Shown here in pieces: positions 3,315 to 34,991 of a stretch of DNA of 44,812 nucleotides. The number at the start of each line of letters is the position of its first letter. Position 1 is the first letter of the stretch. The position numbers and the translations under genes were made by a program. The stretch spans positions 1-44,812 of the forward strand of contig CALZIC010000005.1 in NCBI GenBank assembly GCA_945787285.1, in the 5' to 3' direction. Source of the DNA: an uncultured Desulfuromonadales bacterium (GTDB taxonomy: Bacteria; Desulfobacterota; Desulfuromonadia; Desulfuromonadales; Trichloromonadaceae). Below the pieces are notes generated by a model. That model was not told the DNA's origin. It was given only the letters and a program-made list of their open reading frames with translations, and did no database searches.

Positions 3315-4541
3315 ATGCTTGCATCCCGTTTCCCTTTTCACTATGGCTGGATCATTGTTCTGGCCGGAATCTGTTCGCTTTTCTCCTGCCTCGGGCTGGC
3401 CCGGTTCGCCTACGGGATGCTGCTGCCGTCTATGGGCAAAGGCCTGCTGCTCGGCTACGACCAGATGGGTTTCGTCAGCACCGCCAATTTTGCCGGATAT
3501 TTCGTTTCGGTCGGTTTGACTCCGTGGATCATCCGGCACCTGCGTCCGCGACTGACCATCACCCTGGGGCTGCTGATGGTGGCGGCGAGCATGCTCGGCA
3601 TTGCCGCCTGCAGTGGGTTTGCCTCTCTGGCGGCGCTTTACGCGGTGACCGGCATCGGCAGCGGCCTGGCGAACATCCCCATCATGGTGCTGGTGTCGCA
3701 CTGGTTCCGCAGATCCCACCGGGGCCGGGCGGCGGGGCTGATGGTGGTCGGCAACGGCGCCGGAATCATCTTTTCCGGAATTTTCGTCCCCTTCATGAAC
3801 CGCCAGTTCGGCCCGCAGGGATGGCGCTGGGAGTGGTTGATCCTCGGTCTTCTGTCGCTGGCCGCAGCGGTGCTGGTTGCGGCTCTGGTCCGCAACGACC
3901 CCGCGGACCTGGGCCTTGAACCGGTCGGCGTCAGCGAACCGGTGCTGCCGGTGATCAAAGCCGCCAAGGGACGAAATAGCGGCGCTTCGATCGTTTTGCA
4001 CCTGGGGGCGCTCTACGCCATCTTCGGGGCGACCTATATGGTCTACGGATCGTTTATCGTAACGACCATGGTCGATGAATACGGGTTCGCCGAGAGTTCG
4101 GCCGGCATGTTCTGGTCCTGCATCGGGTTCTTCGGTCTCTTCTCAGGCGTCCTGTTCGGTGTGCTCTCCGACCGCATCGGCCGAAAGGGGGGGCTGATGA
4201 CGGTCTTTGCCGTCCAGAGCTGCGCTTACGCCCTGGCCGGCTCCGGGCTGGGTGCCACGGCCCTGATCCTGTCGGTTTTTCTGTACGGCATCGTCGCTTT
4301 CTCGATTCCGACCATCATGGCGGCCGCCGTCGGCGATTACATGGGGACGTCGCGGGCGGCCGCGGCTTTTTCCATGGTGACCCTCTTTTTCGCTGTCGGT
4401 CAGACCGTCGGTCCGGCCACTGCTGGGATTATCGCCGATGCCAGCGGGTCGTTCACTTCGAGTTTTCTTGCCTGTGCCGGTCTGACAGCCCTGGCGGTGG
4501 TCCTTGCGGCGCTGCTGCCCGTGGCGCAGGAGGGGGCATGA
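3315..4541 (+). CDS. MFS transporter, YbfB/YjiJ-like
   Basis: This 408-residue, 12-helix major facilitator protein of the inner membrane opens with FHYGWIIVLAG. It then shows ARFAYGMLLPSM in the first helical hairpin, which recalls the YbfB/YjiJ and oxalate/monocarboxylate-type MFS groups. A motif-A-like loop (LSDRIGRKGG) occurs near residue 290, between helices 8 and 9. Substrate cannot be inferred. I prefer ATG 3315 because the helical part begins right there; the frame is open to 3219, but that segment is not MFS-like. The 3' end overlaps the next transporter by ATGA, so two exporters or importers are co-expressed. Confidence 0.8.
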   Translation: MLASRFPFHYGWIIVLAGICSLFSCLGLARFAYGMLLPSMGKGLLLGYDQMGFVSTANFAGYFVSVGLTPWIIRHLRPRLTITLGLLMVAASMLGIAACSGFASLAALYAVTGIGSGLANIPIMVLVSHWFRRSHRGRAAGLMVVGNGAGIIFSGIFVPFMNRQFGPQGWRWEWLILGLLSLAAAVLVAALVRNDPADLGLEPVGVSEPVLPVIKAAKGRNSGASIVLHLGALYAIFGATYMVYGSFIVTTMVDEYGFAESSAGMFWSCIGFFGLFSGVLFGVLSDRIGRKGGLMTVFAVQSCAYALAGSGLGATALILSVFLYGIVAFSIPTIMAAAVGDYMGTSRAAAAFSMVTLFFAVGQTVGPATAGIIADASGSFTSSFLACAGLTALAVVLAALLPVAQEGA

Positions 4542-5923
4542 CACAGAAAGTTTCCCGCTCGGCGACCCTTTTTGCCGTTTGCGCGGCCCACTTTATCATG
4601 CCGTTCATGATGTCGGCGGTCGGGGTGGCCCTGCCGGCCATCGGCCGGGAATTCGGCGCCAGCGCCATGCAGTTGGGGCTGGTGGAGACGACCTACGTCT
4701 TATCGTCCTCGGTCTTTCTGCTCTCCATGGGGCGGCTGGCCGATATCCACGGACGCCGGAGGATCTTCGTCGGAGGGCTCGGCCTCTTCACCCTGGTCGG
4801 CGGACTGTTGTCCCAGGCCTGGTCGATCGAGTCGCTGATTTTTTTCCGGTTTCTTCAGGGGATGGGCGGGGCGATGGTCATGGCCACCACCATGGCCATC
4901 GTGGTCTCGGTCTTTCCGCCGCAGAACCGGGGCAACGCGCTCGGAATCGCTGTCGCCGCGGTCTATGCCGGCATTTCCTGCGGACCTTTCATTGGTGGAT
5001 TGCTCACCTCCTGGCTCGGCTGGCGATCGATTTTTTACCTCTCGGTGCCTCTTGGAGCCTTGACCTTTTTTATCGTTCTGACCCGTCTTCGCGGGGAATG
5101 GGCCGAGTCCAGAGGAGAGCCTTTCGACTGGAAAGGGAGCATTATCTACGCAGCCTCTCTGCTGACCCTGATTTCAGGAGCTTCGAATCTCGATCATGGC
5201 CTGTGGGCCTGGGGGCTGGTTCTTGCCGGCACTATCGGGTTCATTCTTTTTGTACTCTTCGAGGACCGGCTGCAGTACCCGATCCTCAATATCGCTCTTT
5301 TAAGGGACAACCGCATTTTCACCCTGAGCAACCTTGCCGCGCTCCTCAACTATGCCGCCACCTTCGGGGTGACCTTCTTCTTCAGTCTCTACCTGCAGTA
5401 CGTCAAGGGGATGAGTCCGCGCGAGGCGGGGCTGGTCCTGATCATCCAGCCGATCACTCAGGCGCTCCTTTCGCCCCTGTGCGGAATGCTGGCCGACCGA
5501 TACCGGGCTGAAAAGGTGGCTACCGTCGGCATGACCCTGTGCGTTGTCGGGCTGGCAGTCGCCGCGACCATTACGTCATCGACGCCTATGCCGGTCATTT
5601 TTTCTGTGCTCGGCTTTATGGGAACCGGCTTTGCGCTTTTCTCCTCTCCCAATGTCAGCGTCATCATGGGGAGCGTTGATCCCAGCCATCTCGGCGTCGC
5701 CTCAGGGCTCAGCTCGAGCATGCGCACCCTGGGCATGATGACGAGCATGATGATCATCACCATCATTTTCTCCATATTGATGGACGGCCAGCCAGTAACG
5801 CTGCAGACCCAGCCCGCCTTTTTGCAGAGTATGCAGACTGCCCTGGTTGTGTTTTGCCTGTTGTGCCTGGTGGGCATCGGCTGCTCGGTGGGGCGGTTTG
5901 TCTCGTTTTCGGGGAAGGCGTGA
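4538..5923 (+). CDS. MFS drug:H+ antiporter-type transporter (DHA2-like)
   Basis: This 461-residue protein has about 14 hydrophobic segments, the size and layout of the EmrB/QacA (DHA2) branch of the MFS. The motif A loop GRLADIHGRRR is at about residues 67-77, and the FLQGMGGAM and GPFIGGLL motifs of helices 4 and 5 are present. Such proteins export hydrophobic or cationic compounds using the proton gradient, but no adaptor (EmrA-type) or regulator gene is next to it. Translation is coupled to the preceding MFS gene (ATGA overlap), an unusual pairing of two different MFS subfamilies. The transcript probably ends at the terminator at 6042-6080. Confidence 0.85.
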   Translation: MTQKVSRSATLFAVCAAHFIMPFMMSAVGVALPAIGREFGASAMQLGLVETTYVLSSSVFLLSMGRLADIHGRRRIFVGGLGLFTLVGGLLSQAWSIESLIFFRFLQGMGGAMVMATTMAIVVSVFPPQNRGNALGIAVAAVYAGISCGPFIGGLLTSWLGWRSIFYLSVPLGALTFFIVLTRLRGEWAESRGEPFDWKGSIIYAASLLTLISGASNLDHGLWAWGLVLAGTIGFILFVLFEDRLQYPILNIALLRDNRIFTLSNLAALLNYAATFGVTFFFSLYLQYVKGMSPREAGLVLIIQPITQALLSPLCGMLADRYRAEKVATVGMTLCVVGLAVAATITSSTPMPVIFSVLGFMGTGFALFSSPNVSVIMGSVDPSHLGVASGLSSSMRTLGMMTSMMIITIIFSILMDGQPVTLQTQPAFLQSMQTALVVFCLLCLVGIGCSVGRFVSFSGKA

Positions 5924-7518: not shown

Positions 7519-7568
7519 TTATGCGGAATTTCTACGATGAACACGGGGCTTTACATGACCCAGTGAAC

Positions 7569-7598
7569 AAAAAGACCCGGCGCGGGCGCGGCCGGGTC
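7569..7598 (-). terminator. Intrinsic terminator of the flagellar rod gene
   Basis: On the minus strand GACCCGGC pairs with GCCGGGTC around a 9-base loop and is followed by five T residues. It lies about 38 bases after the stop of the rod-protein gene. Confidence 0.85.
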
Positions 7599-7635
7599 CT
7601 CTGGTGGTATGGCGAGGGCGGGTGGGGCTGGTGGA

Positions 7636-7977
7636 TTACTTCTTGATGTCGAGCAGGGTGCCCATCATCTCGTCCTGGGTCTGGATCATTTTGACATTGG
7701 CGGTATAGATCCCCTGGGTCGGAATGGTCGAGACGAGTTCTTCGGCCAGATCGACGTTGGAGAGTTCGCGGGTCGTTCCCTGGTCTTCAACGATCGTGCC
7801 CGGGGTATCGACCTTGCTGACCTCCGCCGATACGCCGCCGTTTTCCCTGTCGGTGAAGGTTACCCGGTCCTTTTTGAAGCCGTCGGTATTGGAATTGGCG
7901 ACGTTGTTGGCGGTCGCGGACATTTTGGTGCCCATGGCGTTCATGCCCATGACGCTGACATGCAAAGGATTGATCAT
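7636..7977 (-). CDS. Short FlgB/FlgC-like flagellar basal-body rod protein
   Basis: This 113-residue protein has both conserved ends of flagellar axial proteins. The N-terminal rod motif is at about residues 20-31 (ATANNVANSNTDGFK). A C-terminal segment at about 71-112 (SNVDLAEELV ... YTANVKMIQTQDEMMGTLLDI) resembles the FlgC/FlgG C-terminus. Only about 30 residues separate them, so it is shorter than a normal FlgC (about 135 residues). These ends form the coiled coils that stack in the rod. I chose ATG 7977, preceded by GGGAGGAGAG; the frame extends 8 codons further upstream without a ribosome-binding site. No other flagellar gene is nearby: it is a single-gene transcript with its own promoter, a c-di-GMP riboswitch and a terminator. 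It could be an accessory rod protein instead of canonical FlgC. Confidence 0.85.
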   Translation of the reverse strand: MINPLHVSVMGMNAMGTKMSATANNVANSNTDGFKKDRVTFTDRENGGVSAEVSKVDTPGTIVEDQGTTRELSNVDLAEELVSTIPTQGIYTANVKMIQTQDEMMGTLLDIKK

Positions 7978-7983
7978 GACTCT

Positions 7984-8023
7984 CCTCCCTGGGTTAGGCA
8001 AAGGGCGTGCGGTGCATCAGGGA
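7984..8023 (-). promoter_or_regulatory. Possible ribosome-binding-site sequestering helix (riboswitch expression platform)
   Basis: On the minus strand TCCCTG (8018-8023) is complementary to CAGGGA (7986-7991), which includes the first bases of the ribosome-binding region CAGGGAGGAG ahead of ATG 7977. An upstream CCTCC can also pair with GGAGG. No intrinsic terminator lies between aptamer and gene, so control at translation initiation is more likely than attenuation. Inference from complementarity only. Confidence 0.35.
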
Positions 8024-8082
8024 CGGGCAGGCAAGGAGGTTGGGCCGAACGGGGACAGATCGGGGTGCGGAGAAGAAGAGGT

Positions 8083-8170
8083 GTGTGCAACCCTGCTGCC
8101 GTACCCATTTTCATGGATGTAGGCCAGTGGCTTTGCGTCCCACCCTTTCGGATGGTTTGCCCGTATAGTT
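8083..8170 (-). promoter_or_regulatory. GEMM-I (cyclic-di-GMP-I) riboswitch aptamer
   Basis: The minus strand contains the hallmark GEMM-I core in the right order. GGGCAAACC leads into a CCATCC-GAAA-GGGTGG hairpin capped by a GNRA tetraloop. GGGACGCAAAGCC, then GGCCTA, a second helix CCAT-GAAA-ATGG, and the closing GGGTACGGCAGCAGGGTTGC follow. Aligned by eye to Vibrio Vc2, the ligand-contacting position 20 is G (the middle G of GGGC), which predicts c-di-GMP preference over the G20A cGAMP-sensing variants known from Geobacter. It lies about 105 bases before the flagellar rod gene, and a promoter sits immediately upstream. The 3' boundary is approximate. Confidence 0.93.
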
Positions 8171-8173
8171 TCT

Positions 8174-8203
8174 ATGCTACATGGCCTCGCCGTTTTGGGT
8201 CAA
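8174..8203 (-). promoter_or_regulatory. Promoter of the riboswitch transcript
   Basis: On the minus strand TTGACC, an 18-base spacer and TAGCAT end 4 bases before the riboswitch 5' strand, so transcription would begin at the aptamer. The tight fit with the aptamer supports it. Confidence 0.55.
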
Positions 8204-18836: not shown

Positions 18837-18876
18837 CGCCCCTGTGGAAAAGGCATTTCTCAGGGGCGTTTTATTT
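18837..18876 (+). terminator. Hairpin at the 3' end of the minus-strand ATPase operon
   Basis: CGCCCCTG (18837-18844) pairs perfectly with CAGGGGCG (18861-18868). On the plus strand TTTTATTT follows, making it a terminator for the radical SAM transcript. On the minus strand it begins right after the V-ATPase subunit D stop but lacks a T-run, so there it would act as a 3'-end stem only. Confidence 0.55.
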
Positions 18877-19497
18877 CCTTTGGCTTCGCAAGTCCTTGAA
18901 TCGCTTCAGTCGGAAATGCGCTTCCCGTTCCCTTTCCCCAATATACTGGCCGATGATTTTTATCTGATCCTTCAAATTTGGTAGGACTCTTTCCTCCAGC
19001 ACCCGGGTTCTGCGCGTAACATGCAGGATCTCCTCGCCGAGCATTTTCAGCTTGCTTTCGAAGGTTGCGATCTCGAGCATCGATTCGACTATTTTTTCGA
19101 AAAGGTAGATCGATTCCTCCATGTGCGGGGTGGTGGCGGTGTAGTCGTAGTTCCGTTCTTCCGGGGTGAGGACAAACGGACCGTATACGGAAAGGTCGCG
19201 GTACCGCACGCCCATGGCACTTTTTTCCTGGACATCCACACCGACCTCACGATCACTCACCGCCGCGATCGATTCAATAAAACCTCTCCCTTCATGCCCC
19301 TGGCTGAGGTGAAGCTCGTTCAGGGCCCTGCTGTAATCCCGTTTGATGGCATCCCTGGAGTTCAGAAATGGTCGCACGGAAGTGAGAAACTCCCGGATCA
19401 GGGCCTGCCGCCTGGCCTTGAGGATCGCCACGCTGTTGGTGACGGAACCTGCCTTTTCCTTCAGCAGGAGCAGATTGGTCCGGGTGGGATGGATCAT
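18871..19497 (-). CDS. atpD: V/A-type ATPase subunit D (first system)
   Basis: The 208-residue central-shaft subunit has the family N-terminus PTRTNLLLLKEKAGSV and long coiled-coil helices at both ends. A middle globular part contains EKSAMGVRY. A C-terminal helix rich in R/E (EERVLPNLKDQIK...REREAHFRLKRFK) completes it. It rotates inside the A3B3 head and links to the c-ring through F and C. It is the last gene of the minus-strand operon; its start overlaps the end of subunit B by ATGA. It lacks any downstream stress-protein gene, unlike the plus-strand operon. Confidence 0.95.
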   Translation of the reverse strand: MIHPTRTNLLLLKEKAGSVTNSVAILKARRQALIREFLTSVRPFLNSRDAIKRDYSRALNELHLSQGHEGRGFIESIAAVSDREVGVDVQEKSAMGVRYRDLSVYGPFVLTPEERNYDYTATTPHMEESIYLFEKIVESMLEIATFESKLKMLGEEILHVTRRTRVLEERVLPNLKDQIKIIGQYIGEREREAHFRLKRFKDLRSQRK

Positions 19498-20837
19498 GGC
19501 GTCTCCAGGGAGAACCGCTGCAGCAGGGCGATACCGGCGTCAAGGGTGGTGTGGATGTCCCGGCGCTCCCCCCCTTGATGCACCAACTCCTTCTCGAAAG
19601 CTTCGGCGAAGTCGAGCATCACCCGGTCGCTTTCGGTCATGCCCTCCCGGCCGACAATGGCCTCGAGGGCCCGCAAATCCCTGCCCTTGGCATAGTGCTT
19701 GTAAAGGAGGTTGGCGAGATCCCTGTGGTCCGCCCTGGTGCGCCCTTCGCCGATGCCCCGTTGCATGAGTCGGGACAGGCTGGGCAAGACGTCCACCGGC
19801 GGAAAGATCCCCCTCTGGTGCAGCTCACGGCTGAGAACGATCTGTCCCTCGGTGATGTAGCCGGTGAGGTCGGGGATAGGGTGGGTGATGTCATCCTCGG
19901 GCATGGTCACCACAGGGAGCATGGTGACCGATCCGGGTGTCTCCTTGATACGCCCGGCGCGCTCATAGATGGCCGCAAGGTCGGAATACATGTAACCCGG
20001 ATAGCCCCGTCTGCCGGGGAGTTCCTCCCGGGCCGTGGAGACCTCGCGCAGGGCGTCGCAGTAGTTGGTCACGTCGGTGATCAGTACCAGCACATCCAGG
20101 CTGTGCTCAAAGGCCAGGTATTCGGCCACGGTGAGACCGAAGCGTGGGGCGAGCAGCCTTTCGACCACCGGGTCGTCGGCCAGATTGATGAAGGCGACGA
20201 AATTGGTGCGCATTTTCTCCAGGGTGCGGCGGTAGAAGGAGTATTCGTGAAAGGTTAGTCCCAGGGCGACGAAGACCACGATAAAGCCTTCGCCCATCCG
20301 GGAGGACGCACCCGCGGCCAGGCGGGCATTTTTAAGGACGCCTGCTGCCATCTCCTTGGAGGGGAGACCGGCGCAGGAAAAGATAGGGAGTTTCTGTCCC
20401 TTGACCAGGGTGTTGAGGCCGTCGATGGTGGAAAAGCCGGTCTCTATGAACTCTTCGGGCCGGGCTCTGGCTGCCGGATTCATAGGAAAGCCCGAGACCG
20501 GTACCCACTTGTCGGGACGAAACATGGGGGCATTGTCGATGGGCTGAAAGGAGCCGTTGAAGACCCTATCGAGCATGTCGAGGGAGAGGGGCGCCTGTTT
20601 GATCGCGTCGGTAAAGACCACCTGCGAGTTGTCCATGTCGAGGCCGCGGCTTTCACCGAAAATCTGGATAAGCACCGTGGTGCCCTCGATTTTCAGCACC
20701 TCCCCCTCCATCGTGTCTCCATCGGGAAAGATGATGGTGACCACCTCCCCCATGCGCACTTCCATGACCTTTTCAACGAACAATAAAGGTCCCTGGATAG
20801 AGGACATGGTGGAGAAAGTGTGTTCAGAGAGGCGCAT
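19494..20837 (-). CDS. atpB: V/A-type ATPase subunit B (first system)
   Basis: This 447-residue non-catalytic nucleotide-site subunit alternates with A in the A3B3 head. The characteristic sequence is present: ETGFSTIDGLNTLVKGQKLPIF (no Walker A, as expected for B), [39 protein letters not shown] and LPSLSRLM...GRTRADH. ATG 20837 has AAGGA 8 bases upstream and the frame before it has no homology. The 95-base gap to subunit A is the only large gap in an otherwise overlapping operon. Confidence 0.95.
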   Translation of the reverse strand: MRLSEHTFSTMSSIQGPLLFVEKVMEVRMGEVVTIIFPDGDTMEGEVLKIEGTTVLIQIFGESRGLDMDNSQVVFTDAIKQAPLSLDMLDRVFNGSFQPIDNAPMFRPDKWVPVSGFPMNPAARARPEEFIETGFSTIDGLNTLVKGQKLPIFSCAGLPSKEMAAGVLKNARLAAGASSRMGEGFIVVFVALGLTFHEYSFYRRTLEKMRTNFVAFINLADDPVVERLLAPRFGLTVAEYLAFEHSLDVLVLITDVTNYCDALREVSTAREELPGRRGYPGYMYSDLAAIYERAGRIKETPGSVTMLPVVTMPEDDITHPIPDLTGYITEGQIVLSRELHQRGIFPPVDVLPSLSRLMQRGIGEGRTRADHRDLANLLYKHYAKGRDLRALEAIVGREGMTESDRVMLDFAEAFEKELVHQGGERRDIHTTLDAGIALLQRFSLETP

Positions 20838-20932
20838 GGGGAATCCTTTTTTTGAGCTGGGGGCTAGGGGCTGGCCCAATAGTCGTTGCCAGAATCTCTC
20901 CTGCCCACTGCCACCAATCACCAATCACTGTC
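20838..20932. other. 95-base non-coding insert between atpA and atpB
   Basis: All other junctions in this operon are overlaps or a few bases. This one contains low-complexity text: CACCAATCACCAATCAC direct repeats and GGGGGCTAGGGGCTGG. The text resembles short dispersed intergenic elements. The ribosome-binding site of atpB lies at its end. It may be an inserted repeat or a processing site that adjusts B relative to A. Confidence 0.4.
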
Positions 20933-22552
20933 TTACTCACACTCCTTCAGCACCTCATCCAGAAATTCCCCTTTTTCCAGCCTTTGCCGGGCACAGCGGT
21001 AAAATTCCAGAAGGGTGCTGATCTTTTCAAACGTCTGCTCCGGCGGAGAGAAGGCATCCTCGGTATAGGCATTTTGTGCGAGGAAACTCTGGCGGACATC
21101 TTCGGCCACCTTCATCAGCAACCGGTCGGCGTCCTGCAGACCTTCGGTGCCGACAATCTCCGCCACCTCTCGCAGGCCTTCCTCCCTCTGCAGCAGTTCT
21201 CGGCACTCCTGCTTCAGGGCCCCCCATTTGGGATTGATTCGTTCATTGAAATGGCTGGAGACCTCCTCCTCGTAGAGGGAAAAGCTCTGAAACCAGTTGA
21301 TGGCGGGAAAGTGCCGGCGGTGGGCGAGGGTGGTGTCGAGCATGAAAAAGGCCCCGGTGGTTCTCAGGCAGGCCTGGGTCACCGGTTCTGTGAAATCCCC
21401 GCCGGGGGGGGAAATGGACAGGATCATGGTCAGAGAGCCTGTTTTGCCGTCCAGTGTCTCCACCACCCCGGCCCGGGCGAAAAACTCGGCCATTCGCGAG
21501 GCGAGATAAGTGGGGTAGCCTTCCTCACCGGGCATCTCTTCGAGGGCCGAGGAGATTTCCCGCAGGGCCTCCGCCCAGCGGGACAGGCTGTCCGCCAACA
21601 GCAGCACGTTGTACCCCATGTCCCGGTAGTATTCGGCCATAGTGACCGCCGTGTAGATGGAGGCCTCCCGGGCGGCCACCGGCATGTTGGAGGTGTTGAC
21701 CACCACGATGGTCCGTGTCATCAGCGGCCGATCAGTCCAGGGGTCGCTGAGAGTCGAGAACTCCTCCAGCATCTCCGCCATCTCGTTGCCCCGTTCTCCG
21801 CAGCCCACGTAGATGACGATTTCGGCGTCGGCGAACTTGGCGATGGTTTGCTCCAGAATGGTTTTGCCCGTGCCGAATCCGCCAGGGAAAATCGCTGTGC
21901 CGCCCCGCGCCAGGGGGAAAAGAAAATCGATGCAGCGCTGGCCGGTGATGAGGGGCTCCGCTTGGTAAAGCTTTCTCCGGTAGGGGCGGGGTCGGCGCAC
22001 CGGCCATTGGTGAAAGGCGAAGATCTGACGGCCATTCTCCAGGGAGGCCAGCGGATCCTCCAGGCTGAACTCCCCCGCGACGATCCTGGCAATGGTCCCT
22101 TCGGTATCCACGGCGTGAATGTAATGCTTGAAGGCGCCTTCCTCGACGTAGCCCAGGGGTTCCCCGATCCGGATTTCATCTCCCTGCTTCTTCAGGGGGA
22201 AGAACCGCCAGGGTTTGACGCTTTCCAGGGGAGGGGATTCTTTTCCGGCATGGATGAAGGGACCACCCTCCTGGTAGAGCCACTCCAGGTGTCTTTGCAG
22301 GCCGTCGAACATCTGGTTCAAGAGGCCCGGACCCAGCCGAACGGTGAGGGGCATTTCCACCCCCACTACCGGCTCCCCCATGCCGAGGCCGCGGGTATCC
22401 TCATAGACTTGTACCACCGCCCGGTCCTGCTCCAGGCGGACGACCTCGCCCATGAGCCTGGTATGGCCCACCGTGACCCGGTCGTAGAGCCTGAGGCCCT
22501 TGAGGTCGACACTCACCGTCGGGCCGGATATACCCGTTATGCGGCCGGTCAT
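20933..22552 (-). CDS. atpA: V/A-type ATPase catalytic subunit A (first system)
   Basis: This 539-residue catalytic subunit carries the P-loop GGFGTGKT at residues 224-231. The [12 protein letters not shown] and [16 protein letters not shown] motifs contain the catalytic Glu, and adenine-pocket motifs include [15 protein letters not shown]. It is shorter than most A subunits (about 580 residues), mainly at the C-terminus, and has no extension, in contrast to its paralogue at 31624. It hydrolyses or makes ATP at the A-B interface. The start overlaps the subunit F stop by ATGA. Confidence 0.96.
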   Translation of the reverse strand: MTGRITGISGPTVSVDLKGLRLYDRVTVGHTRLMGEVVRLEQDRAVVQVYEDTRGLGMGEPVVGVEMPLTVRLGPGLLNQMFDGLQRHLEWLYQEGGPFIHAGKESPPLESVKPWRFFPLKKQGDEIRIGEPLGYVEEGAFKHYIHAVDTEGTIARIVAGEFSLEDPLASLENGRQIFAFHQWPVRRPRPYRRKLYQAEPLITGQRCIDFLFPLARGGTAIFPGGFGTGKTILEQTIAKFADAEIVIYVGCGERGNEMAEMLEEFSTLSDPWTDRPLMTRTIVVVNTSNMPVAAREASIYTAVTMAEYYRDMGYNVLLLADSLSRWAEALREISSALEEMPGEEGYPTYLASRMAEFFARAGVVETLDGKTGSLTMILSISPPGGDFTEPVTQACLRTTGAFFMLDTTLAHRRHFPAINWFQSFSLYEEEVSSHFNERINPKWGALKQECRELLQREEGLREVAEIVGTEGLQDADRLLMKVAEDVRQSFLAQNAYTEDAFSPPEQTFEKISTLLEFYRCARQRLEKGEFLDEVLKECE

Positions 22553-22869
22553 AGGCTCAACCTTATCTGGTAGCCGATAGCCCTGCGGATCAGACGCAGA
22601 GCGTAATCCTCCCCGGCCAGTTCCGCCTTTGACGGTGCCGGCAGTACCATGATGAGACCGGGCCAGCGCAACTCCATCTCCCTGAACCTTTCGTGAGAAA
22701 GCCCCTCGACCAACCTCTCGTCGATCACCACCACCCCGGTTTCTGGGTCCTCCACCGTCTCCAGCAGCATTTTTTCGACTTCTTCTTCCACCAGGGTCAG
22801 TTGTCTGACCCCGGTCAGGCTGAAACCGTATCGGGCATCCTGGGGGGTGATGAAGACGATTTTTTTCAC
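22549..22869 (-). CDS. atpF: V/A-type ATPase subunit F (first system)
   Basis: This 106-residue central-stalk subunit starts IVFITPQDARYGFSLTGVRQL, the Rossmann-like start of the F family. VVVIDERLVEGL and LIMVLPAP follow. It binds subunit D and tunes activity. The start is GTG, overlapping the stop of subunit C (GTGA); the 3' end overlaps subunit A. Confidence 0.9.
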   Translation of the reverse strand: MKKIVFITPQDARYGFSLTGVRQLTLVEEEVEKMLLETVEDPETGVVVIDERLVEGLSHERFREMELRWPGLIMVLPAPSKAELAGEDYALRLIRRAIGYQIRLSL

Positions 22870-23798
22870 TGGATCAACTCCATGGCGAGGGCTTCCCGGT
22901 CCACATCCTTCCCATGGTGGAGCAATGCCAGGTTGCGAGCCTCAACGTAAAGGCGCCAGAGATAATCAAGGATCAGTCCGACACCGTCTGCTTCTCGGCC
23001 AATCCGGCGCAGTTTATCCGTCATATTTCTGAGCAACGAGGTCTCCAGGGCGCTTTCGGTTCCTTTGATGCCGCCGGCTGTCAAACCCTTCACCCTTTGC
23101 AAAAAGGTCTCAAGCCCAGCCAACTCTCCCTTCTCCGATATTTCCCGCAGCCGGGAATATGGGACCGTTCCTCCTGCGATAAAGGGGGGTGGGGCGGCGA
23201 TGTCCCAACGCAGATGTTTGTAAAGGATCATGAGGTTGCGCAGGTCAATGAATAAAATGAAAAATTCCTTGATCGCAGGGTGGTGCTTTGTCTTGACGGT
23301 ATGTTCCAGATGTAAACGCATCAGGCTGTTTTCGAACCCCTTCAAGCCTTTGTCCGCATAGGCTCTCTCCATCTCCCTGAAGCTTTCCCCCGCAGAGGCG
23401 AAGCAATCCGTTACCGCAGCCACGGTTGAACGGATATCGGTGCCTTTTAACAAAGCCTCCTGCACTCTCTCGGAAAGAAGGCTGAAGGACAGGAGCCTAT
23501 CGATCTTGAGCCTTTCCTCGATCTCCTTGTTCCTCAGGCAGAGAATAATGGTCTTCAGTTCAAAGACCAGGAAGACTGGAGCAAAGGAGTGTCTCAGCTC
23601 CCGGTTCATCTGCCGGTATAGCCATTCGAATTCCTGGAGTAGCGCTTCCCAGATGCCTTCATCCGAAGTTCCGGGGGGCACCCCTTCGGCGAGCAGGGGT
23701 TGCCAGTCTGCAACCAGCGAGGCTCTTCGCCCCTTGATCCTGGCGAGCAGGTAGTCGGTTGGAAATCCATCGGGAAGGCTCTCACGCAGTAGATTCAT
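22866..23798 (-). CDS. atpC: V/A-type ATPase subunit C (first system)
   Basis: The 310-residue member of the AC39 family sits as a funnel on the c-ring and connects it to the D/F shaft. It is all-helical by composition, with FELKTIILCLRNKEIEERLK and FFILFIDLRNLMILYKHLRW typical of the three-lobed fold. Sequence similarity between this copy and the plus-strand copy (27437) is low by eye. The start lies 17 bases inside the subunit E gene. Confidence 0.85.
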   Translation of the reverse strand: MNLLRESLPDGFPTDYLLARIKGRRASLVADWQPLLAEGVPPGTSDEGIWEALLQEFEWLYRQMNRELRHSFAPVFLVFELKTIILCLRNKEIEERLKIDRLLSFSLLSERVQEALLKGTDIRSTVAAVTDCFASAGESFREMERAYADKGLKGFENSLMRLHLEHTVKTKHHPAIKEFFILFIDLRNLMILYKHLRWDIAAPPPFIAGGTVPYSRLREISEKGELAGLETFLQRVKGLTAGGIKGTESALETSLLRNMTDKLRRIGREADGVGLILDYLWRLYVEARNLALLHHGKDVDREALAMELIQ

Positions 23799-24366
23799 GA
23801 TTCAGAAACTCGCGGCAGAGACTTTCGAGCAGGTCGGGAAGGATACCGGGCCAGGCCCTCTCCAGCCTCTTCTCCAGGGTATTGATGATGCGTATGCGTC
23901 CCTCCTCGCCCTCGACTTCCATCCCACCGATGGTGGTCTGGTCAGGTACCACCTGGGCGTTTGGAAAGTATCTTCGGGCCAGGCTCTGGTCTGCGGGATT
24001 GACCTTTACCCTCTGCCATTGGCGGGTTGGCAGTTCACCGGCCAGGGCGGCAAACAGATCCTCATAACCCTGGTTCCGGAACCTCGGGAGGGACTCCAGC
24101 GCCAGCCGGTAGAGGCGGTCAGCCAGCGTGTTTTTTGCCGCCACCCGAATCTTCCTAACCTCGCGCTCGGCCTCGACTGTGAAGGTCTTTAACAGTTTTT
24201 GCTCAAGCATGGCCAGGTCGTTCTCAGACTGGGCTCTTTTCTCTTCGATCCTGTGGGAGGCCTCCGCCCTGATTCTTTCGACCTCGGCTTCAGCTTCCTG
24301 CCAGATAGCAGAGGCTTTCCCCTCGGCCTTTTGCCGAAGGGCGTCGAGTAACGCCGGATGATTCAT
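23782..24366 (-). CDS. atpE: V/A-type ATPase subunit E (first system)
   Basis: This 194-residue peripheral-stalk subunit starts with a long charged helix (residues 5-80, AIWQEAEAEVERIRAEASHRIEEKR), expected to coil with subunit H/G. A globular C-terminal domain with GGMEVEGEEGRIRIINTLEKRLE follows and binds the top of the head. The gene begins 4 bases after the stop of subunit K. Confidence 0.9.
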   Translation of the reverse strand: MNHPALLDALRQKAEGKASAIWQEAEAEVERIRAEASHRIEEKRAQSENDLAMLEQKLLKTFTVEAEREVRKIRVAAKNTLADRLYRLALESLPRFRNQGYEDLFAALAGELPTRQWQRVKVNPADQSLARRYFPNAQVVPDQTTIGGMEVEGEEGRIRIINTLEKRLERAWPGILPDLLESLCREFLNHESTA

Positions 24367-24370
24367 GCGC

Positions 24371-24601
24371 TCAGCCCATCAGGATCATGGCCGCAATGAC
24401 GAAACCGAGAATCACCATCGTCTCGGGAATGGCCAGCAGAATGATGATGGTGGCGGTCAATTCCGGCTTTTCAGCCAGGGCACCGGCGCCGGCCGATCCG
24501 ATTCTGGATTGGACCCAGGCCGTGGCCAGAGCGCTCACCCCTAAAGCCAGGGCAGCGGCAAAGGCCAGCAGTACTTTCTCAAGGTTCATCACATCTTCCA
24601 T
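24371..24601 (-). CDS. atpK: V/A-type ATPase c-ring subunit K (first system), single hairpin
   Basis: This 76-residue proteolipid has two membrane helices. The ion-binding carboxylate is E60 in LAIPETMVILGF. Helix 1 has a glutamine, Q31, in ATAWVQSRIGSAG, and T61 follows the Glu. Those positions (Gln in helix 1, Glu plus a hydroxyl residue in helix 2) resemble Na+-binding c-subunits. As far as I recall, similar residues also occur in Thermus-type V/A ATPases, so specificity is open. There is no N-terminal extension. ATG 24601 has GAGGAGGG 5 bases upstream. Confidence 0.95.
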   Translation of the reverse strand: MEDVMNLEKVLLAFAAALALGVSALATAWVQSRIGSAGAGALAEKPELTATIIILLAIPETMVILGFVIAAMILMG

Positions 24602-24611
24602 AGATCCCTCC

Positions 24612-26492
24612 TCATTTATCTTTTTTCAGGGGCTTGAACTGTTTACCTCCAGGTTCCATGAATTTACCGAAGAACTCGACATAATGGAGACGCAGTGAGT
24701 GAATGGTCGGAGCGAATACCCCTAGAATGATGTTAAAGGTATGCAGCAGTACGGCCACGAAAATGCCCACCCAGATGCTCCCCGCGCTACCAGCAAGATG
24801 GTTGGCGACATAAGCCAGCAGGACCGAAGTAAGACCGATTGCCATGATCCTTGCGTAGGAAATGATGTTGCCAAAATTCTTCAACAGCTCAAGCGGGCCC
24901 AACAGGCCGCCGGTCACCAGCAGGATCGGAGAGATAATCAGGATCGTCATCAGCAGGGGTTTTCTGATCAGCGAAGGGACCGGAGCCAGGAATGTCGCGG
25001 AGAAAGCTACCGCACAAAGAATCACCAGAACACTGAGGAGCTTGAATAGAGCCTCTTTGCGCATTTTCCTTTTCAGCGCGGAAAGGGCCCCTAAAACGAG
25101 CCCCAGGGTAATATGGACCATGCCCACCGCCATGGAAAAGTAGAGCATCGGTATGATGGCGGTGCGCCGGTCAAAACAGATCGGCTCCAGCCCCAGAACC
25201 TCACTGCCGAATTCGCCGAAACACTCCCCGAAGAGCCAGCCGAAAAAAATCGTATAGAGTGCGGCGACTCCAAGAATTTTCCCGGCGTCGACCACGTTCT
25301 TCTTATGTTTGACCAGATATATCAGGGCCAGGGCGACCAGAAAAAGAATGATCCCATAACCGATATCCCCGAGGGTCATGCCGAAGAAAAGAGGAAAGAA
25401 AATGCCGATAAATGGGGTGGCGTCGTAGGAGGTGTAGCGCGGCAGGGGGAGAAGCCTGATGAGCAGTTCGAACGGTTGAAAGTAGAGCGGATTCTTCAGC
25501 ACGACCGGAACCCTTTCCTGGTCCTGTTCAAGAATCTCCTTTTCCTCCACCACCACCGTATCGTGAAACTTTTCGGCCAGAATTTCCCTGAGTTTTTTCA
25601 GATCAGCAGAGGGCAGCCAGCCGAAGAGGAAGAAACAGGTTTCGGTCTCGTACAGAGAGGCGGTTGTTTTCAGCAGGGCGAGCCGGTCCTCCAGCCAGGC
25701 CCTCACCTTCCGGTAGAGATCCAGCCATCGGTAGGCAAAGCTTTGGAGTTCGTGATCTGCCCCGGAGATCTCGGCGGAAAGGTCGTCACGCCGTCTTTGA
25801 GCCGCCTTGATTTTTTCCGGAAAAGGAAGATCTTCCAGGTAGGGTGGCAGGGAAACCTCCGGAATCTGGTTGTCGCTCAGGGCCGTTTTCAGTTGTTCGG
25901 ACAATTCCTTCTCGGTTGTCAGCAGCCCGATATAGGTTCCCTCTTCAGTTTTTGCCGTCTGCACCTCGGCCCCCAGCAGCAGGTGACCTGCGATCCGGGT
26001 AAGGTGCTCCAGGGCGGCAGGGTCTCTGACCTCTATCCCGATAAAGTCGAGGCCGGTATCCTCCGTCACGCCATGAAGAAGGGCCTCGACAGTGCTCAGG
26101 AAGGCGGCGTATCGGTTCAGTTCGATCAACTCTTTCTGGGCGGCCTCCTTTTTTTTGCTGATGTCCCGGCAGCTTGTCGTATGTTTTGGCACCAGGCTGG
26201 CGATGGAATTGATCGCTGTGGGGGGATTGAGGTAGCTTTCCTTTGCCGAAACCTGAGGCAGGTAGGCCAGCAGGTTATCGATTTTGACCTTGAGATCTTC
26301 AAAAAACAGGCGTTCCGAGAGGGTTTTCCCGTCCATGAGAAGAGACCGGAGGTGGGGCTCGACTCGCTCATTGACGGCCCCTTTAATCTCACCGTTGATC
26401 TGCAGCACCCCCCTTTTCTGAATTAAAGAGAGGACCTCCATAAGAGACTCTTTGGGCCCGATGATCTCAATTTTGGACATTCTGACGATCAT
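24612..26492 (-). CDS. atpI: V/A-type ATPase membrane subunit I/a (first system)
   Basis: The product has 626 residues. A cytosolic N-terminal half (1-330) with coiled coils forms the arm that contacts the peripheral stalks. The C-terminal half has about 7-8 membrane helices (FIGIFFPLFFGMTLGDIGYG; FGNIISYARIMAIGL). The essential Arg of the ion half-channels is R601 in SLRLHYVEFF. Ions pass between this subunit and the c-ring. ATG 26492 is preceded by GAGGACAGAG; the start lies inside the upstream stalk gene (26-base overlap). Confidence 0.95.
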   Translation of the reverse strand: MIVRMSKIEIIGPKESLMEVLSLIQKRGVLQINGEIKGAVNERVEPHLRSLLMDGKTLSERLFFEDLKVKIDNLLAYLPQVSAKESYLNPPTAINSIASLVPKHTTSCRDISKKKEAAQKELIELNRYAAFLSTVEALLHGVTEDTGLDFIGIEVRDPAALEHLTRIAGHLLLGAEVQTAKTEEGTYIGLLTTEKELSEQLKTALSDNQIPEVSLPPYLEDLPFPEKIKAAQRRRDDLSAEISGADHELQSFAYRWLDLYRKVRAWLEDRLALLKTTASLYETETCFFLFGWLPSADLKKLREILAEKFHDTVVVEEKEILEQDQERVPVVLKNPLYFQPFELLIRLLPLPRYTSYDATPFIGIFFPLFFGMTLGDIGYGIILFLVALALIYLVKHKKNVVDAGKILGVAALYTIFFGWLFGECFGEFGSEVLGLEPICFDRRTAIIPMLYFSMAVGMVHITLGLVLGALSALKRKMRKEALFKLLSVLVILCAVAFSATFLAPVPSLIRKPLLMTILIISPILLVTGGLLGPLELLKNFGNIISYARIMAIGLTSVLLAYVANHLAGSAGSIWVGIFVAVLLHTFNIILGVFAPTIHSLRLHYVEFFGKFMEPGGKQFKPLKKDK

Positions 26493-26811
26493 TCTCTGTC
26501 CTCGGCACGATGCAGGAAATGTGCTGCCAAACGGTCCGTTGCAAATGATGGTCGCTCAAATTCTCCAGTTGCCTGCCTAGGGAGACGGCGTTTTGGACAA
26601 TTTTATCCGCCCTGTTTTCGGCCGCCGATTGGGCGTCTTCTCTTGCCCTCCTGGTTGAATCGGCAAGGCGGTTGATTTCGTCTTGTTCTTTGCTTTCAGT
26701 TTCTTTTCTTATCCGCGACAGCCATTCGGAGGCTCTTTTTTGCTCGGCCTCGAGCATCTTCTTGATGGCGAGCTCGGTGTCTATGATGTCTTTAAGCGTA
26801 TTTTGTTCCAT
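26467..26811 (-). CDS. atpH: V/A-type ATPase peripheral-stalk subunit H/G (first system)
   Basis: This 114-residue protein is almost entirely charged helix (KKMLEAEQKRASEWLSRIRKE...RRAREDAQSAAENRADKIVQ), the pattern of the stalk subunit that pairs with E. It is the first gene of the minus-strand operon, as in archaeal aha operons. I chose ATG 26811 (GGAAAG upstream); the frame stays open to 26895 without family features. The C-terminal 20 residues overlap the next gene and look less helical. Confidence 0.8.
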   Translation of the reverse strand: MEQNTLKDIIDTELAIKKMLEAEQKRASEWLSRIRKETESKEQDEINRLADSTRRAREDAQSAAENRADKIVQNAVSLGRQLENLSDHHLQRTVWQHISCIVPRTENDRQNVQN

Positions 26812-27116
26812 CGCCACTTTCCAAGGACGCAAATCTTCAGACCATCCGATGATTTGGTGACAGAGAAAAAAGGTATCGGATTCAAGTTTTGCCACCGTAA
26901 TTGGTAAAAGATTGAAAACATTGGATTCCTTGGTTCGTAATTCTCAATCATTATACCGTGTTTAATCATTCATGCCAGAGGAGCCAGGGACAAAGTTTAA
27001 TTCTGTCCGGTTTAATCGCTGGCTGCCTTGAAAGGTGGATAAAAGCTGTTAACTATTTAAATAGAAAACGGTTTTAAAGCACTCTGCAAATTGCCAACGG
27101 ATGCAGAAAGGTCGCC
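26812..27116. other. Divergent spacer between the two ATPase operons
   Basis: These 305 bases are notably AT-rich and contain no gene. They hold a good minus-strand promoter (26950-26978) and a weaker plus-strand candidate, TTGAAA at 27028 with TAACTA at 27050 (16-base spacer). There is room for a shared operator, but no clear palindrome was seen. Confidence 0.6.
26950..26978 (-). promoter_or_regulatory. Promoter of the minus-strand ATPase operon
   Basis: On the minus strand CTGGCA, a 17-base spacer, and a perfect TATAAT. The predicted start is about 130 bases before atpH, leaving a long 5' leader. Confidence 0.6.
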
Positions 27117-27437
27117 ATGCCGTTCGGGGACGAACTCAGAATGGTTCTCAAAATTGAACGGGAGGGAAAAAAACGCCTGGAGGAAGCGAGGAGCGAGTCC
27201 CAACGGATCATCGAAACCGCCAGGGAAAAGGCCCGCCTTCTGCTCCAGGAAGCGGATGAGGTGATTGCCAGGGAGCGTAAAGAAAAAATCGCGGAAACCG
27301 ACCTGGAGACTGACAAGTTGATTGACGACATCCGCCACCGGTTGTATCTGGAAGAGGACCGGCTGCAGAGCCTGGCCGAGAAAAACCGGGAAGCGGCGGT
27401 GCGGCGCATCCTTTCGTGGCTGTGGGGAGAAACCTGA
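27117..27437 (+). CDS. atpH: V/A-type ATPase peripheral-stalk subunit H/G (second system)
   Basis: This 106-residue, highly charged helical protein (REGKKRLEEARSESQRIIET...ARLLLQEADEVIARERKEK) is expected to pair with subunit E as a right-handed coiled coil. It is the first gene of the plus-strand operon. ATG 27117 has AAAGG 5 bases upstream. Its stop overlaps the start of subunit C (TGATG). Confidence 0.8.
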   Translation: MPFGDELRMVLKIEREGKKRLEEARSESQRIIETAREKARLLLQEADEVIARERKEKIAETDLETDKLIDDIRHRLYLEEDRLQSLAEKNREAAVRRILSWLWGET

Positions 27438-28447
27438 TGTTGTCGCGGCTTTTGAAGTTCCCCTATGCCAACGCCAAAGCCCGTGCTCTGATAGCTGGGT
27501 ACCTGGGAACAGAGGCTTTGGAAGACCTGGCCGGAACCTCGTCACGACAGAGGGGGGTGGCCTTCCTTAAAGAGCGGCGATACCTGCCATCTGAAGAGCA
27601 GGCCCGAGAGGTGGAGATAGAACTGCGAAGAAATTTCATCTCCCTCGGAGCCAGGGTGGCGCGTTCGCTGCCCGCCCTGGAACGGTCACTGATTGAAACC
27701 TACCTGCGCCGGGTGGATGTGGAGAATCTCAAGACGGTTTGCCGCGGTCTGCTCTCGGGAGTGGAGCCGGAACGGTTTCATGCGCTCCTGGTCCCGGCAC
27801 CGGAGGCGGCTGCTCTTCCGGTGGAAACGCTTGGCAAAATCCGCGACGTTGAAGGCCTCCTGTCCGTCCTCTCACATCACCCCTTGGGGACCGTTTTGCG
27901 CGAGGGCTTCGAAATGCCTCCCGAGCGGCGCCTGCATCTATGGGAGTTGGCCCTTGACCGCGCCTTCTGGGCCGAGCTCAGGGAGCGCCTGTTGGAGTTG
28001 GCTCCCTTCGACCGCCAGGCTGCCGGGGAGATAATCGCCCTGAGGGCCGATGTGGACCGATGGCAGGTTGTGCAACGGGGATGGTCGGCACAGCTTGGCG
28101 TCGAGGAGATCCTGGCGGGCCTTCCGCCCCTGGGTTCTTTATTTTCTCAGTCTAGTGTCCGGCGGGCCCTGCTTTCCAACCATCCCGGTGACCTGCTCAG
28201 GCAGATGTTTCCGGTTAAGGGAGTGGCCGACCCCTTCAGCCCCCAGGGTGAAGTGGCCCTGTTCAGGAGGCTTTATAAGCAGTTGCGACGCACCCTGATC
28301 GCCCCCCCCTTTGATATTGCGACGCCCCTTGCAGCCGTCTTGCTCAAGGAGATGGAGATCCGTGATCTGCAGGCGGCCCTAAGCGGCCTGCGGTTGGGAA
28401 GGGGGCCGCAGAACATCACGCCCTTTTTCGTCAGCACAGCGGAATAG
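27437..28447 (+). CDS. atpC: V/A-type ATPase subunit C (second system)
   Basis: This 336-residue AC39-type helical protein begins FPYANAKARALIAGYLGTEALEDLAGT and has repeated lobes (IETYLRRVDVENLKTVCRGLL; LLKEMEIRDLQAALSGLRLG). The ATG at 27437 overlaps the upstream stop and follows GGGGAG. In this operon C is second, ahead of I and K, whereas the minus-strand operon places it after E, so the gene order is rearranged. Confidence 0.8.
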   Translation: MLSRLLKFPYANAKARALIAGYLGTEALEDLAGTSSRQRGVAFLKERRYLPSEEQAREVEIELRRNFISLGARVARSLPALERSLIETYLRRVDVENLKTVCRGLLSGVEPERFHALLVPAPEAAALPVETLGKIRDVEGLLSVLSHHPLGTVLREGFEMPPERRLHLWELALDRAFWAELRERLLELAPFDRQAAGEIIALRADVDRWQVVQRGWSAQLGVEEILAGLPPLGSLFSQSSVRRALLSNHPGDLLRQMFPVKGVADPFSPQGEVALFRRLYKQLRRTLIAPPFDIATPLAAVLLKEMEIRDLQAALSGLRLGRGPQNITPFFVSTAE

Positions 28448-28449
28448 CC

Positions 28450-30710
<2,261 letters not shown>

Positions 30711-31016
30711 ATGAGCATTCTGATTCTGGGATCCAAAGAAGTCGCGACCGCCTTCGCCCTGGGCGGAATGAAGGGAAGGGTGGTTCATGATCGCAGCGAA
30801 GCCCTGGCCGTTGTCGAAGAGGCCGGTCGCCTGGCAGGGGTGAAAATTCTAGTGGTGGAGGAAGAGGTCGCCGAGATGGCGCGGGAGGCCATCGACCGGT
30901 TAAAGCTCGATCCCGGTGCCCCGCTGGTGGTGGAAATCCCCGGGTTTTCAGGTCCATCCGAGGATCGCCAAACAGCCCGCGATCTGGTTCGGCGGGCTCT
31001 TGGAATTCACATCTAG
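30711..31016 (+). CDS. atpF: V/A-type ATPase subunit F (second system)
   Basis: This 101-residue stalk subunit starts ILILGSKEVATAFALGGMKGRVV, typical of the F family, with ILVVEEEVAEMA following. The ATG directly abuts the stop of K (no gap). In this operon F precedes E, the reverse of the first operon. Confidence 0.88.
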   Translation: MSILILGSKEVATAFALGGMKGRVVHDRSEALAVVEEAGRLAGVKILVVEEEVAEMAREAIDRLKLDPGAPLVVEIPGFSGPSEDRQTARDLVRRALGIHI

Positions 31017-31037
31017 CCAGAGAAGGTGGATGTTGGC

Positions 31038-31634
31038 ATGGCGCGGGAACCTGTTCTTAAAAAGGAATTACTTCGGGAAATCGCCGGGGAGGTCGAGGAC
31101 GTCCTCGCCCAGGCTCGAAGCAAGGGGGAGTCGCTTCTGCAGGATGCCGAGATCCTGAGGAATAACCGGCTCAGCGCCGAGCGGGAGACTCTGGCCAAGG
31201 AGATGGAACGCCGCCGTTCCAAGGCCACCTCCCAGACCCTGATGGAGAAGCGCAACGCCCTGTTGACGCTCAGGAAGAATGAACTTGATGAGGTCTTCAG
31301 GGAGGCGCGCAAGAGATTGGTTGTCATGGCGGCAGAGGAACCGGAGCGCTTCGGGGAACTGTTGTGGGCCCTCTTTGAGGCGGGGCAGGACCTTCTTCCG
31401 GAAGGAACGATGGGGGTCAGGCTCGGCGAGGGGGGGGAGCGGATTGCCCCGCGGCTTCATAAACAGGGAGAGGTGGCGCTTGTCATTGAAAAGGGGTGGC
31501 AGGGGCTGATCATCGAGAGTGGGGACGGCAGGGTGCGCTGCGACTATTCGTTCGAGGTCCTGCTGGGGCGATGCCGCTCAGAACTGCAGGCGGAAATCGA
31601 AGGAATCGTATTCGAGGAGGAGCGTGAAGGCTGA
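31038..31634 (+). CDS. atpE: V/A-type ATPase subunit E (second system)
   Basis: The 198-residue peripheral-stalk subunit has a long charged N-terminal helix (LAQARSKGESLLQDAEILRNNRLSAE). A globular C-terminal domain (GLIIESGDGRVRCDYSFEVLL) resembles the end of other E subunits. The start may be ATG 31038 or GTG 31026. The gene's 3' end overlaps the GTG of subunit A by 11 bases. Confidence 0.87.
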   Translation: MAREPVLKKELLREIAGEVEDVLAQARSKGESLLQDAEILRNNRLSAERETLAKEMERRRSKATSQTLMEKRNALLTLRKNELDEVFREARKRLVVMAAEEPERFGELLWALFEAGQDLLPEGTMGVRLGEGGERIAPRLHKQGEVALVIEKGWQGLIIESGDGRVRCDYSFEVLLGRCRSELQAEIEGIVFEEEREG

Positions 31635-33609
31635 AAAAGGGGACAGAATCAGGGTAGGGGCCGTTTCATGGGTAAACGGTCCGGTGGTCCGGGCCTGCAA
31701 GATGGCGGATTTCCGGATGCTCGAGCTCGTGATGGTGGGCGAGGAGGGGCTGGTGGGAGAGATCATCGAGCTCTATGAAGACCAGGCCACCATCCAGGTC
31801 TACGAGGATACCTCCGGGCTCAAGCCGGGCGAGCCGGTGGCCGGCAGTGGGGCGCCCCTTTCCGTCGAGCTCGGTCCGGGACTTATCGGGCAGACCTTTG
31901 ACGGCATCCAGCGGCCTCTGGAACGTCTTCACGAGGCGGCCGGCACCTTTATCCGTCGCGGCACCAAGGCGCCCCGTCTCGATAAAGAGCGCACGTGGGC
32001 CTTTGAGCCCCGCCTGAGCGCGGGCGCCGAGCTCAATGGGGGAGAAATCCTGGGGGTGGCTCCGGAGACGCCCCTGGTCGAGCACAGGGTCCTTGTCCCA
32101 CCGCTGATTCGGGGCCGGCTGAAGACGGTGGCAAGCGCCGGTGAATATACCGTCGAAGATCCCCTGGCCACCGTCGTTACCGACGATGGCGAGGTCACCC
32201 TCACCTTCAAGCATGAGTGGCAGGTGCGCAAGCCCCGGCCGATCTTGGAAAGGCTGCACTATTCCATTCCGCTGGTGACCGGACAGCGGGTCGTGGATGT
32301 CTTTTTCCCCCTGGCCAAGGGAGGAACCGCGACCATTCCCGGTGGGTTCGGAACGGGAAAAACCGTCACCCAGCATAACCTGGCCAAGTGGTCCGATGCC
32401 GACATCATCGTCTATATCGGCTGCGGCGAGCGGGGGAATGAAATGACCGGGGTTCTGACCGATTTCCCCCATCTGAAGGACCCCCGTTCCGGGCACCCCC
32501 TCATGGAGCGCACCGTCCTGATTGCCAACACTTCCAACATGCCGGTGGCCGCCAGGGAGGCGAGCATCTACACCGGAGTGACCCTGGCCGAATTCTATCG
32601 GGACATGGGCTACCATGTGGCGGTCATGGCCGATTCCACATCCCGCTGGGCCGAGGCCCTGCGGGAGATTTCCGGGCGTCTCGAGGAGATGCCCGCAGAA
32701 GAAGGTTTTCCGGCCTATCTCGCCACCCGTCTGGCCGAGTTTTACGAGCGGGCCGGCCGGATCAAAACCCTGGCGGGCGAGGTCGGGTCCATCTCCATTG
32801 TGGGGGCCGTTTCTCCGCCCGGGGGGGACTTTTCCGAGCCGGTTACCCAGCACACCAAACGTTTCGTGCGCTGCTACTGGGCCCTGGACAAGGAACTGGC
32901 ATCGGCCCGGTTTTTTCCGTCCATAAACATTATCGACTCCTACAGCGAGTACCATGAGGCGGTGGCGAGCTGGTGGGAAGAGGCCGGTGGCGAAAACCTC
33001 CGGGACCTTAAGGGGCGCGCCCTGGAGCTGCTACGTGCCGATTACCGGCTGCAGCAGATCGTCAGATTGATCGGCGAGGACGCGCTCCCCGATGAGCAGC
33101 GCATGACCGTTCTCGCCGCGCGCCTGCTCCGGGAAGGTTTTCTGCAGCAGAATGCTTTCGATCCGGTGGACCGGTATGCCCTGCCGCGCAAGCAGGTCAA
33201 AATGCTCAAGGCGGTTCTGCGCTTCTGTGACATGGGCCGGGTGCTGGTTCGCCAGGGGGTTCCCCTCTATCACATCCAGCAGATGGAATCGCTCGACACC
33301 CTGATGCGCATGAAGACCACCATCCCCAATGAGCGCGCCGATGACATCGAGGAGATTATCCGCAGGATCGAGCAGGAGATGGAACCCTACTTCCGCCCCG
33401 AAGAATGGCAGGCCGCCTCAGGCGAAAACCTTGAGGGGCGCAAGCAGGCTCTGGCCCGGGAGTTGATCGAGGAACATACCCGGGAGGAACTATACGAGCT
33501 GGCCAAAAAGCAGAATGTCTCCGGACGCAGCACCATGAGCAAAGAAGAGCTGGCCCGCCGCTTGGCCGAAAGGCAGCTCGGCGGACAGCAGGAAGAGCCC
33601 AGGCCATGA
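31624..33609 (+). CDS. atpA: V/A-type ATPase catalytic subunit A with Rho-N-like C-terminal extension (second system)
   Basis: This 661-residue protein starts at GTG 31624, preceded by GAGGAGG. The P-loop GGFGTGKT is at residues 240-247, with [27 protein letters not shown] and [15 protein letters not shown] downstream. The standard A subunit ends near residue 590. Here another 70 residues follow. Residues 619-651 ([20 protein letters not shown]...) look like the Rho-N/SAP-type helix-extended-loop-helix fold, which usually binds nucleic acid or protein. The paralogue at 20933 has no such tail. The stop overlaps subunit B (ATGA). Confidence 0.93.
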
Positions 33610-34988: not shown

Positions 34989-34991
34989 GTT

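Follow-up and report, generated by a model that had tools for sequence, protein, structure and literature searches.

A small gene for a flagellar rod-type protein, standing outside the flagellar gene cluster, is preceded in this genome by a predicted class I c-di-GMP riboswitch, an arrangement seen again in several unrelated lineages. The RNA is a genuine class I riboswitch by prediction, placed in the leader of a monocistronic gene within the window (the whole stretch of 44,812 nucleotides that was analyzed). That it controls this gene, hereafter the mini rod gene, is very likely. Taken together, the evidence leads us to favor, with some confidence, riboswitch control of an accessory axial subunit, with OFF as the preferred direction. 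The transcription unit comprises the following features, all on the minus strand:

8174..8203, minus strand: sigma70-like promoter, TTGACC (8203-8198), 18-nt spacer, TAGCAT (8179-8174), from a consensus scan
8083..8171, minus strand: GEMM-I (c-di-GMP-I, RF01051) riboswitch aptamer, from cmscan, alignment A2, and covariation
7978..8082, minus strand: leader and presumed expression platform, 105 nt from aptamer to start codon, 45% C and 20% G
About 7984..7989, minus strand: Shine-Dalgarno sequence GGGAGG, from the sequence and its conservation as GGGAGG in L095, L097, and L098
7636..7977, minus strand: gene for a stand-alone rod-type axial protein of 113 aa (ATG at 7977, stop at 7636), from Pfam, alignment A1, AlphaFold2, Foldseek, and dN/dS
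About 7568..7605, minus strand: intrinsic terminator after the gene, a GC-rich hairpin followed by UUUUU, from a scan and folding

The aptamer had been proposed from the letters of the DNA alone, and a covariance-model search bore this out: cmscan matched RF01051 at 8171..8083 with 77.9 bits (E 9.4e-14; gathering score 35 bits) over model positions 1-87 of 87 and returned no other Rfam match in the window. Across relatives, a covariation test detected two-sided change in 12 of the 18 predicted aptamer pairs. In Vc2 numbering, G20, A47, and C92 are the bases that we take to contact c-di-GMP, G20 being the presumed ligand-selecting position. The window aptamer has G at the G20 equivalent (column 11 of alignment A2), as the sequence-only reading had stated, and A and C at the positions aligned with A47 and C92. 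The promoter named in that reading was also recovered, directly upstream of and adjoining the aptamer. Its spacing is kept in L095, L097, and L098, the other three carriers of the gene in the window’s GTDB family: their promoters consist of TTGAC, exactly 18 nt, and TACGAT or TAGGAT, and end at most 2 nt from the aptamer. The proposed ribosome-binding site likewise held up, being retained in the same three relatives.

We then consider the protein. The short gene called by the sequence-only reading encodes two recognizable domains, Flg_bb_rod (PF00460; 30.8 bits, cut-off 20.7) and Flg_bbr_C (PF06429; 49.4 bits, cut-off 23). No NCBIfam cut-off was reached: the protein scored below those for FlgC (TIGR01395, 33.5 vs. 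102.1 bits; PRK12632, 39.7 vs. 170), FlgB (TIGR01396, 28 vs. 59.05 bits), FlgE (74.3 vs. 469), and FlgG (69.2 vs. 252.75), and the FlgE and FlgG profiles aligned only its two ends. In the AlphaFold2 model (pLDDT 89.7), a long helix at each terminus flanks a short beta region, and among solved structures Foldseek ranked Salmonella FlgC first (PDB ID code 7cg0, TMq 0.87). In size and predicted fold, the protein thus resembles FlgC, which likewise combines axial helices at both termini with a short beta region; it differs in being shorter (113 aa vs. 137-143), in having termini closer to those of FlgG and FlgE, and in coexisting with a separate canonical FlgC in the same genome. Its sequence comes closest to FlgG and FlgE at the two ends, over ∼43 residues each and with the SNVDLAEE-type motif included, but it lacks their middle domains save for the short beta region. 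The earlier description as FlgB/FlgC-like therefore stands for size and fold and fails for the sequence of the termini, and we would class the protein as a FlgC-sized rod-type axial protein belonging to a separate family. Among relatives in the window’s family, the dN/dS estimate of the gene was ∼0.2, which shows purifying selection. The expected terminator was present just beyond the 7636-8203 segment in which it had been placed (fold of −23.9 kcal/mol for a 76-nt stretch). Downstream of it, on the same strand as the mini rod gene, lies a purB-like (adenylosuccinate lyase) gene, named by eye; a purB-like gene also follows the mini rod gene in L095.

The mini rod gene is an extra copy. The genome encodes FlgB (137 aa), FlgC (143 aa), FlgF, FlgG, FlgK, an FlgL-like protein, FliE, and FliF on contigs C152, C50, and C226, and since FlgB, FlgC, FlgF, FlgG, FlgK, FliE, and FliF all lie on contigs other than the window’s, the mini rod gene is additional to them and unlinked. 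We had considered that it might supply a missing FlgB, FlgC, or FliE; this was ruled out, as all three are found elsewhere in the genome. When six flagellar proteins from the same genome and a FliD relative were blasted against the window’s ORFs of at least 60 aa, only the mini rod gene was matched, in agreement with the claim that it has no flagellar neighbors. Moreover, in two single-contig closed genomes of the same order (G106 and G034), it lies about 2 Mb and about 1 Mb, respectively, from the flagellar cluster. A single dedicated gene outside a cluster that has its own rod genes, as the sequence-only reading had put it, is thus what we observed. FlgE was not found in the genome by a Flg_bbr_C search of the assembly (517 contigs, 92% complete), and a complete genome of the same family (G125) does have a long FlgE-like frame; the absence is probably an assembly gap. 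Elsewhere in the window, positions 18871-35612 hold what appear to be two separate V/A-type ATPase-like gene sets, one per strand (named by eye).

Sequences related to the window protein form a family of their own, with lengths of about 113-118 aa and an SNVDLAEE motif. Relatives at 40-54% identity come from Desulfobacterota lineages and from Nitrospirota, and 40 of the members (alignment A1) have in common an ANNxANxxTDGFKKSR stretch near the N terminus and SNVDLAEE near the C terminus, the latter invariant or nearly so. A phylum-wide sample of 395 genomes in 246 genera contained the family in 87 genomes and 59 genera, and it occurs in other phyla too. In the window’s class, it occurred in 37 of 277 genomes, where it is nearly restricted to flagellated ones: 36 of the 37 carriers have FliF, compared with 197 of all 277 (Fisher p 2e-5, with kinship ignored). 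A search for conserved neighbors yielded no flagellar gene, with one exception. In L038 (Syntrophaceae; 3544-5330), a GEMM-I aptamer and a terminator are followed by a FliD-type gene and then by the mini rod gene; this FliD-type gene is the only linked flagellar-type neighbor seen in the family.

The coupling of GEMM-I to the mini rod gene is recurrent but not general. We collected 147 family genes, representing 142 distinct sequences. Of these genes, 18 had a GEMM-I aptamer upstream on the same strand, and they belong to several unrelated lineages; about 0.16 linked genes would be expected by chance (84 aptamers in 21 genomes, 75 Mb). The aptamer lies 68-522 nt upstream of the gene in 17 of the 18 loci, the other being L038, where it precedes the FliD-type gene. 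On the gene tree, linkage is scattered (9 label changes), with many forks weakly supported and any count of separate origins correspondingly tentative. Of the five genomes searched in the window’s own GTDB family, four have the gene, in each case with the aptamer ahead of it. All 18 linked aptamers have G at the G20 position, as read from the alignment for 15 of them and from the leader sequences for L095, L097, and L098. Some relatives are labeled RF03167 (c-di-GMP-I-GGC); we did not treat these as a separate class because closely similar aptamers fall under RF03167 or RF01051. At one further locus (L009, 1-24), a possible GEMM-I 3′ end, cut by the contig end, lies 92 nt before a family gene (14.8 bits, E 0.52); it was left uncounted. 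GEMM-I was not detected with 129 of the 147 genes, nor was it found upstream of any of about 68 family genes in a phylum-wide sample outside the window’s class. Riboswitch control is therefore not general to the family, and the loci outside the class rule out universal control.

The direction of control is read largely from relatives. In 7 of the 18 GEMM-I–linked loci, an intrinsic terminator begins 1-21 nt past the aptamer and lies wholly outside it. In the OFF switch Cd1 of Clostridioides difficile, aptamer and terminator coexist, whereas in the pilM ON switch they are mutually exclusive (PMC9262584). The layout in the seven relatives is compatible with a folded aptamer, as in Cd1, and for this reason we infer OFF control for them. 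Pairing of the terminators’ 5′ arms with the aptamers was also considered as an antiterminator; at each locus, 30-345 of 500 shuffles equaled it. Because this is not clearly above shuffles, only the terminator layout counts as evidence. The likeness to Cd1 extends to its position: there, too, a class I c-di-GMP aptamer stands ahead of flagellar axial genes and is followed by a terminator that can coexist with it (PMC9262584). Cd1 differs in its target, the flgB operon with eleven genes of the main flagellar cluster (PMC9262584), where here it is a lone additional rod-type gene located elsewhere; the window leader also differs from Cd1 in having no intrinsic terminator.

Within the window, the leader itself says less about direction. 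A terminator scan found no intrinsic terminator in the leaders of the window and its three closest relatives, and the full-leader fold of the window was not stabler than shuffles (z +1.1). Predicted accessibility of the Shine-Dalgarno sequence falls when the aptamer is insulated, yet 11 of 60 shuffled aptamers gave at least the window value. A 7-bp pairing in the window, ACGGGCA:UGCCCGU, was dropped, and we do not claim it because neither L095 nor L097 preserves it. What sets the leader apart is its composition: only 0.4% of 105-nt stretches in the window reach its excess of C over G, and such a C-rich, G-poor leader would suit Rho-dependent or translational control. We consider it likely that c-di-GMP lowers expression, the direction for the window itself being inferred from the relatives.

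The arrangement that we favor would work as follows. At high c-di-GMP, the aptamer would fold and expression of the mini rod protein would fall. In relatives that have an intrinsic terminator past the aptamer, folding of the aptamer would permit the terminator to form; the C-rich leader of the window may instead act through Rho or at the level of translation. When made, the protein would leave the cell through the flagellar type III apparatus and become part of, or attach to, the rod or hook of the motile cell, where it would be an accessory FlgC-sized rod/hook-type subunit beside the canonical FlgB, FlgC, FlgF, FlgG, and FlgK. Homology and co-occurrence suggest this place in the flagellum, and that the protein is such an accessory axial subunit seems to us a reasonably good, if not firm, proposition.

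An opposite wiring can be imagined, in which c-di-GMP raises the protein and the protein either hinders flagellar growth, by capping or blocking the rod or hook, or serves a structure of the surface state. Such an ON switch would fit the window leader, with its lack of a terminator and a Shine-Dalgarno test not above shuffles, and it would fit a protein that is nearly an axial subunit reduced to D0, lacking a hook or D1 domain; besides, the GEMM clan is known to include ON as well as OFF switches (PMC9262584). We nevertheless think it unlikely, given that the terminators of the seven relatives have the OFF layout, compatible with a folded aptamer, and that the known GEMM-I control of flagellar structural genes, that of Cd1 over the C. 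difficile flgB operon, is OFF (PMC9262584). The gene could also be a redundant rod paralogue that has drifted from the cluster, the riboswitch merely joining it to the ordinary motility regulon, so that its loss would have no phenotype. The presence of all canonical rod proteins and the absence of the riboswitch from most relatives are what this reading would predict, but a dN/dS of ∼0.2, the near invariance of SNVDLAEE across the 40 aligned members, and the spread of the family through 59 of 246 sampled genera of the phylum and into other phyla argue against it, and we hold it improbable.

The ligand, finally, might be another cyclic dinucleotide, such as the cGAMP sensed by the GEMM-Ib RNAs of Geobacter. 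Those RNAs share the aptamer architecture (clan CL00126) and act on cytochrome, pilus, or polysaccharide genes (PMC6456294), whereas a flagellar-type gene is the target here; they also carry A at the selecting position (G20A), where the window aptamer has G. In the same genome, another GEMM-I-clan aptamer (L003, contig C160, 3340-3417, minus strand) does have A at this position, with the adjoining C-G pair swapped. It may be a GEMM-Ib switch of the cGAMP type or some other variant, and cGAMP-type switches may therefore operate in this organism. Its A also hints that the genome belongs on the Desulfuromonadia/Geobacter side of Desulfobacterota; on the gene tree, Desulfobulbales loci fall with genomes of the phylum from other classes than the window’s, which speaks against Desulfobulbia as its class. 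For the mini rod gene itself, the G found in the window aptamer and in the 17 other family-linked aptamers makes such a ligand very improbable.

The genome holds a further GEMM-I aptamer (L004, contig C128, 1501-1607), ∼100 nt ahead of a gene for a T2SSE-family, PilT/PilU-like ATPase (1712-2776). This pairing is predicted to link c-di-GMP to type IV pilus motors.

c-di-GMP silences flagella through transcription factors and motor brakes and, in C. difficile, through a riboswitch that governs an entire flagellar operon. Flagellar genes under riboswitch control are thus known; a stand-alone mini axial gene placed repeatedly under GEMM-I is new in the literature that we searched, where work on GEMM and flgC concerned C. 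difficile only and single instances may be contained in supplementary tables. Here, one small extra axial gene has been singled out, in separate lineages, for repeated coupling to the same RNA sensor. With c-di-GMP riboswitch control OFF as favored, the small rod-type family is probably one part that is adjusted in the change between swimming and settling. A bolder and doubtful extension is that this widespread D0-type mini axial family is a separately regulated regulator of flagellar assembly (e.g., a checkpoint, adaptor, or stop subunit), repeatedly put alone under a c-di-GMP riboswitch. If that were true, the second messenger would gain a direct handle on axial structure outside the flagellar transcription hierarchy. 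The repeated coupling suggests a flagellar accessory family, not described so far, for which dosage is important.
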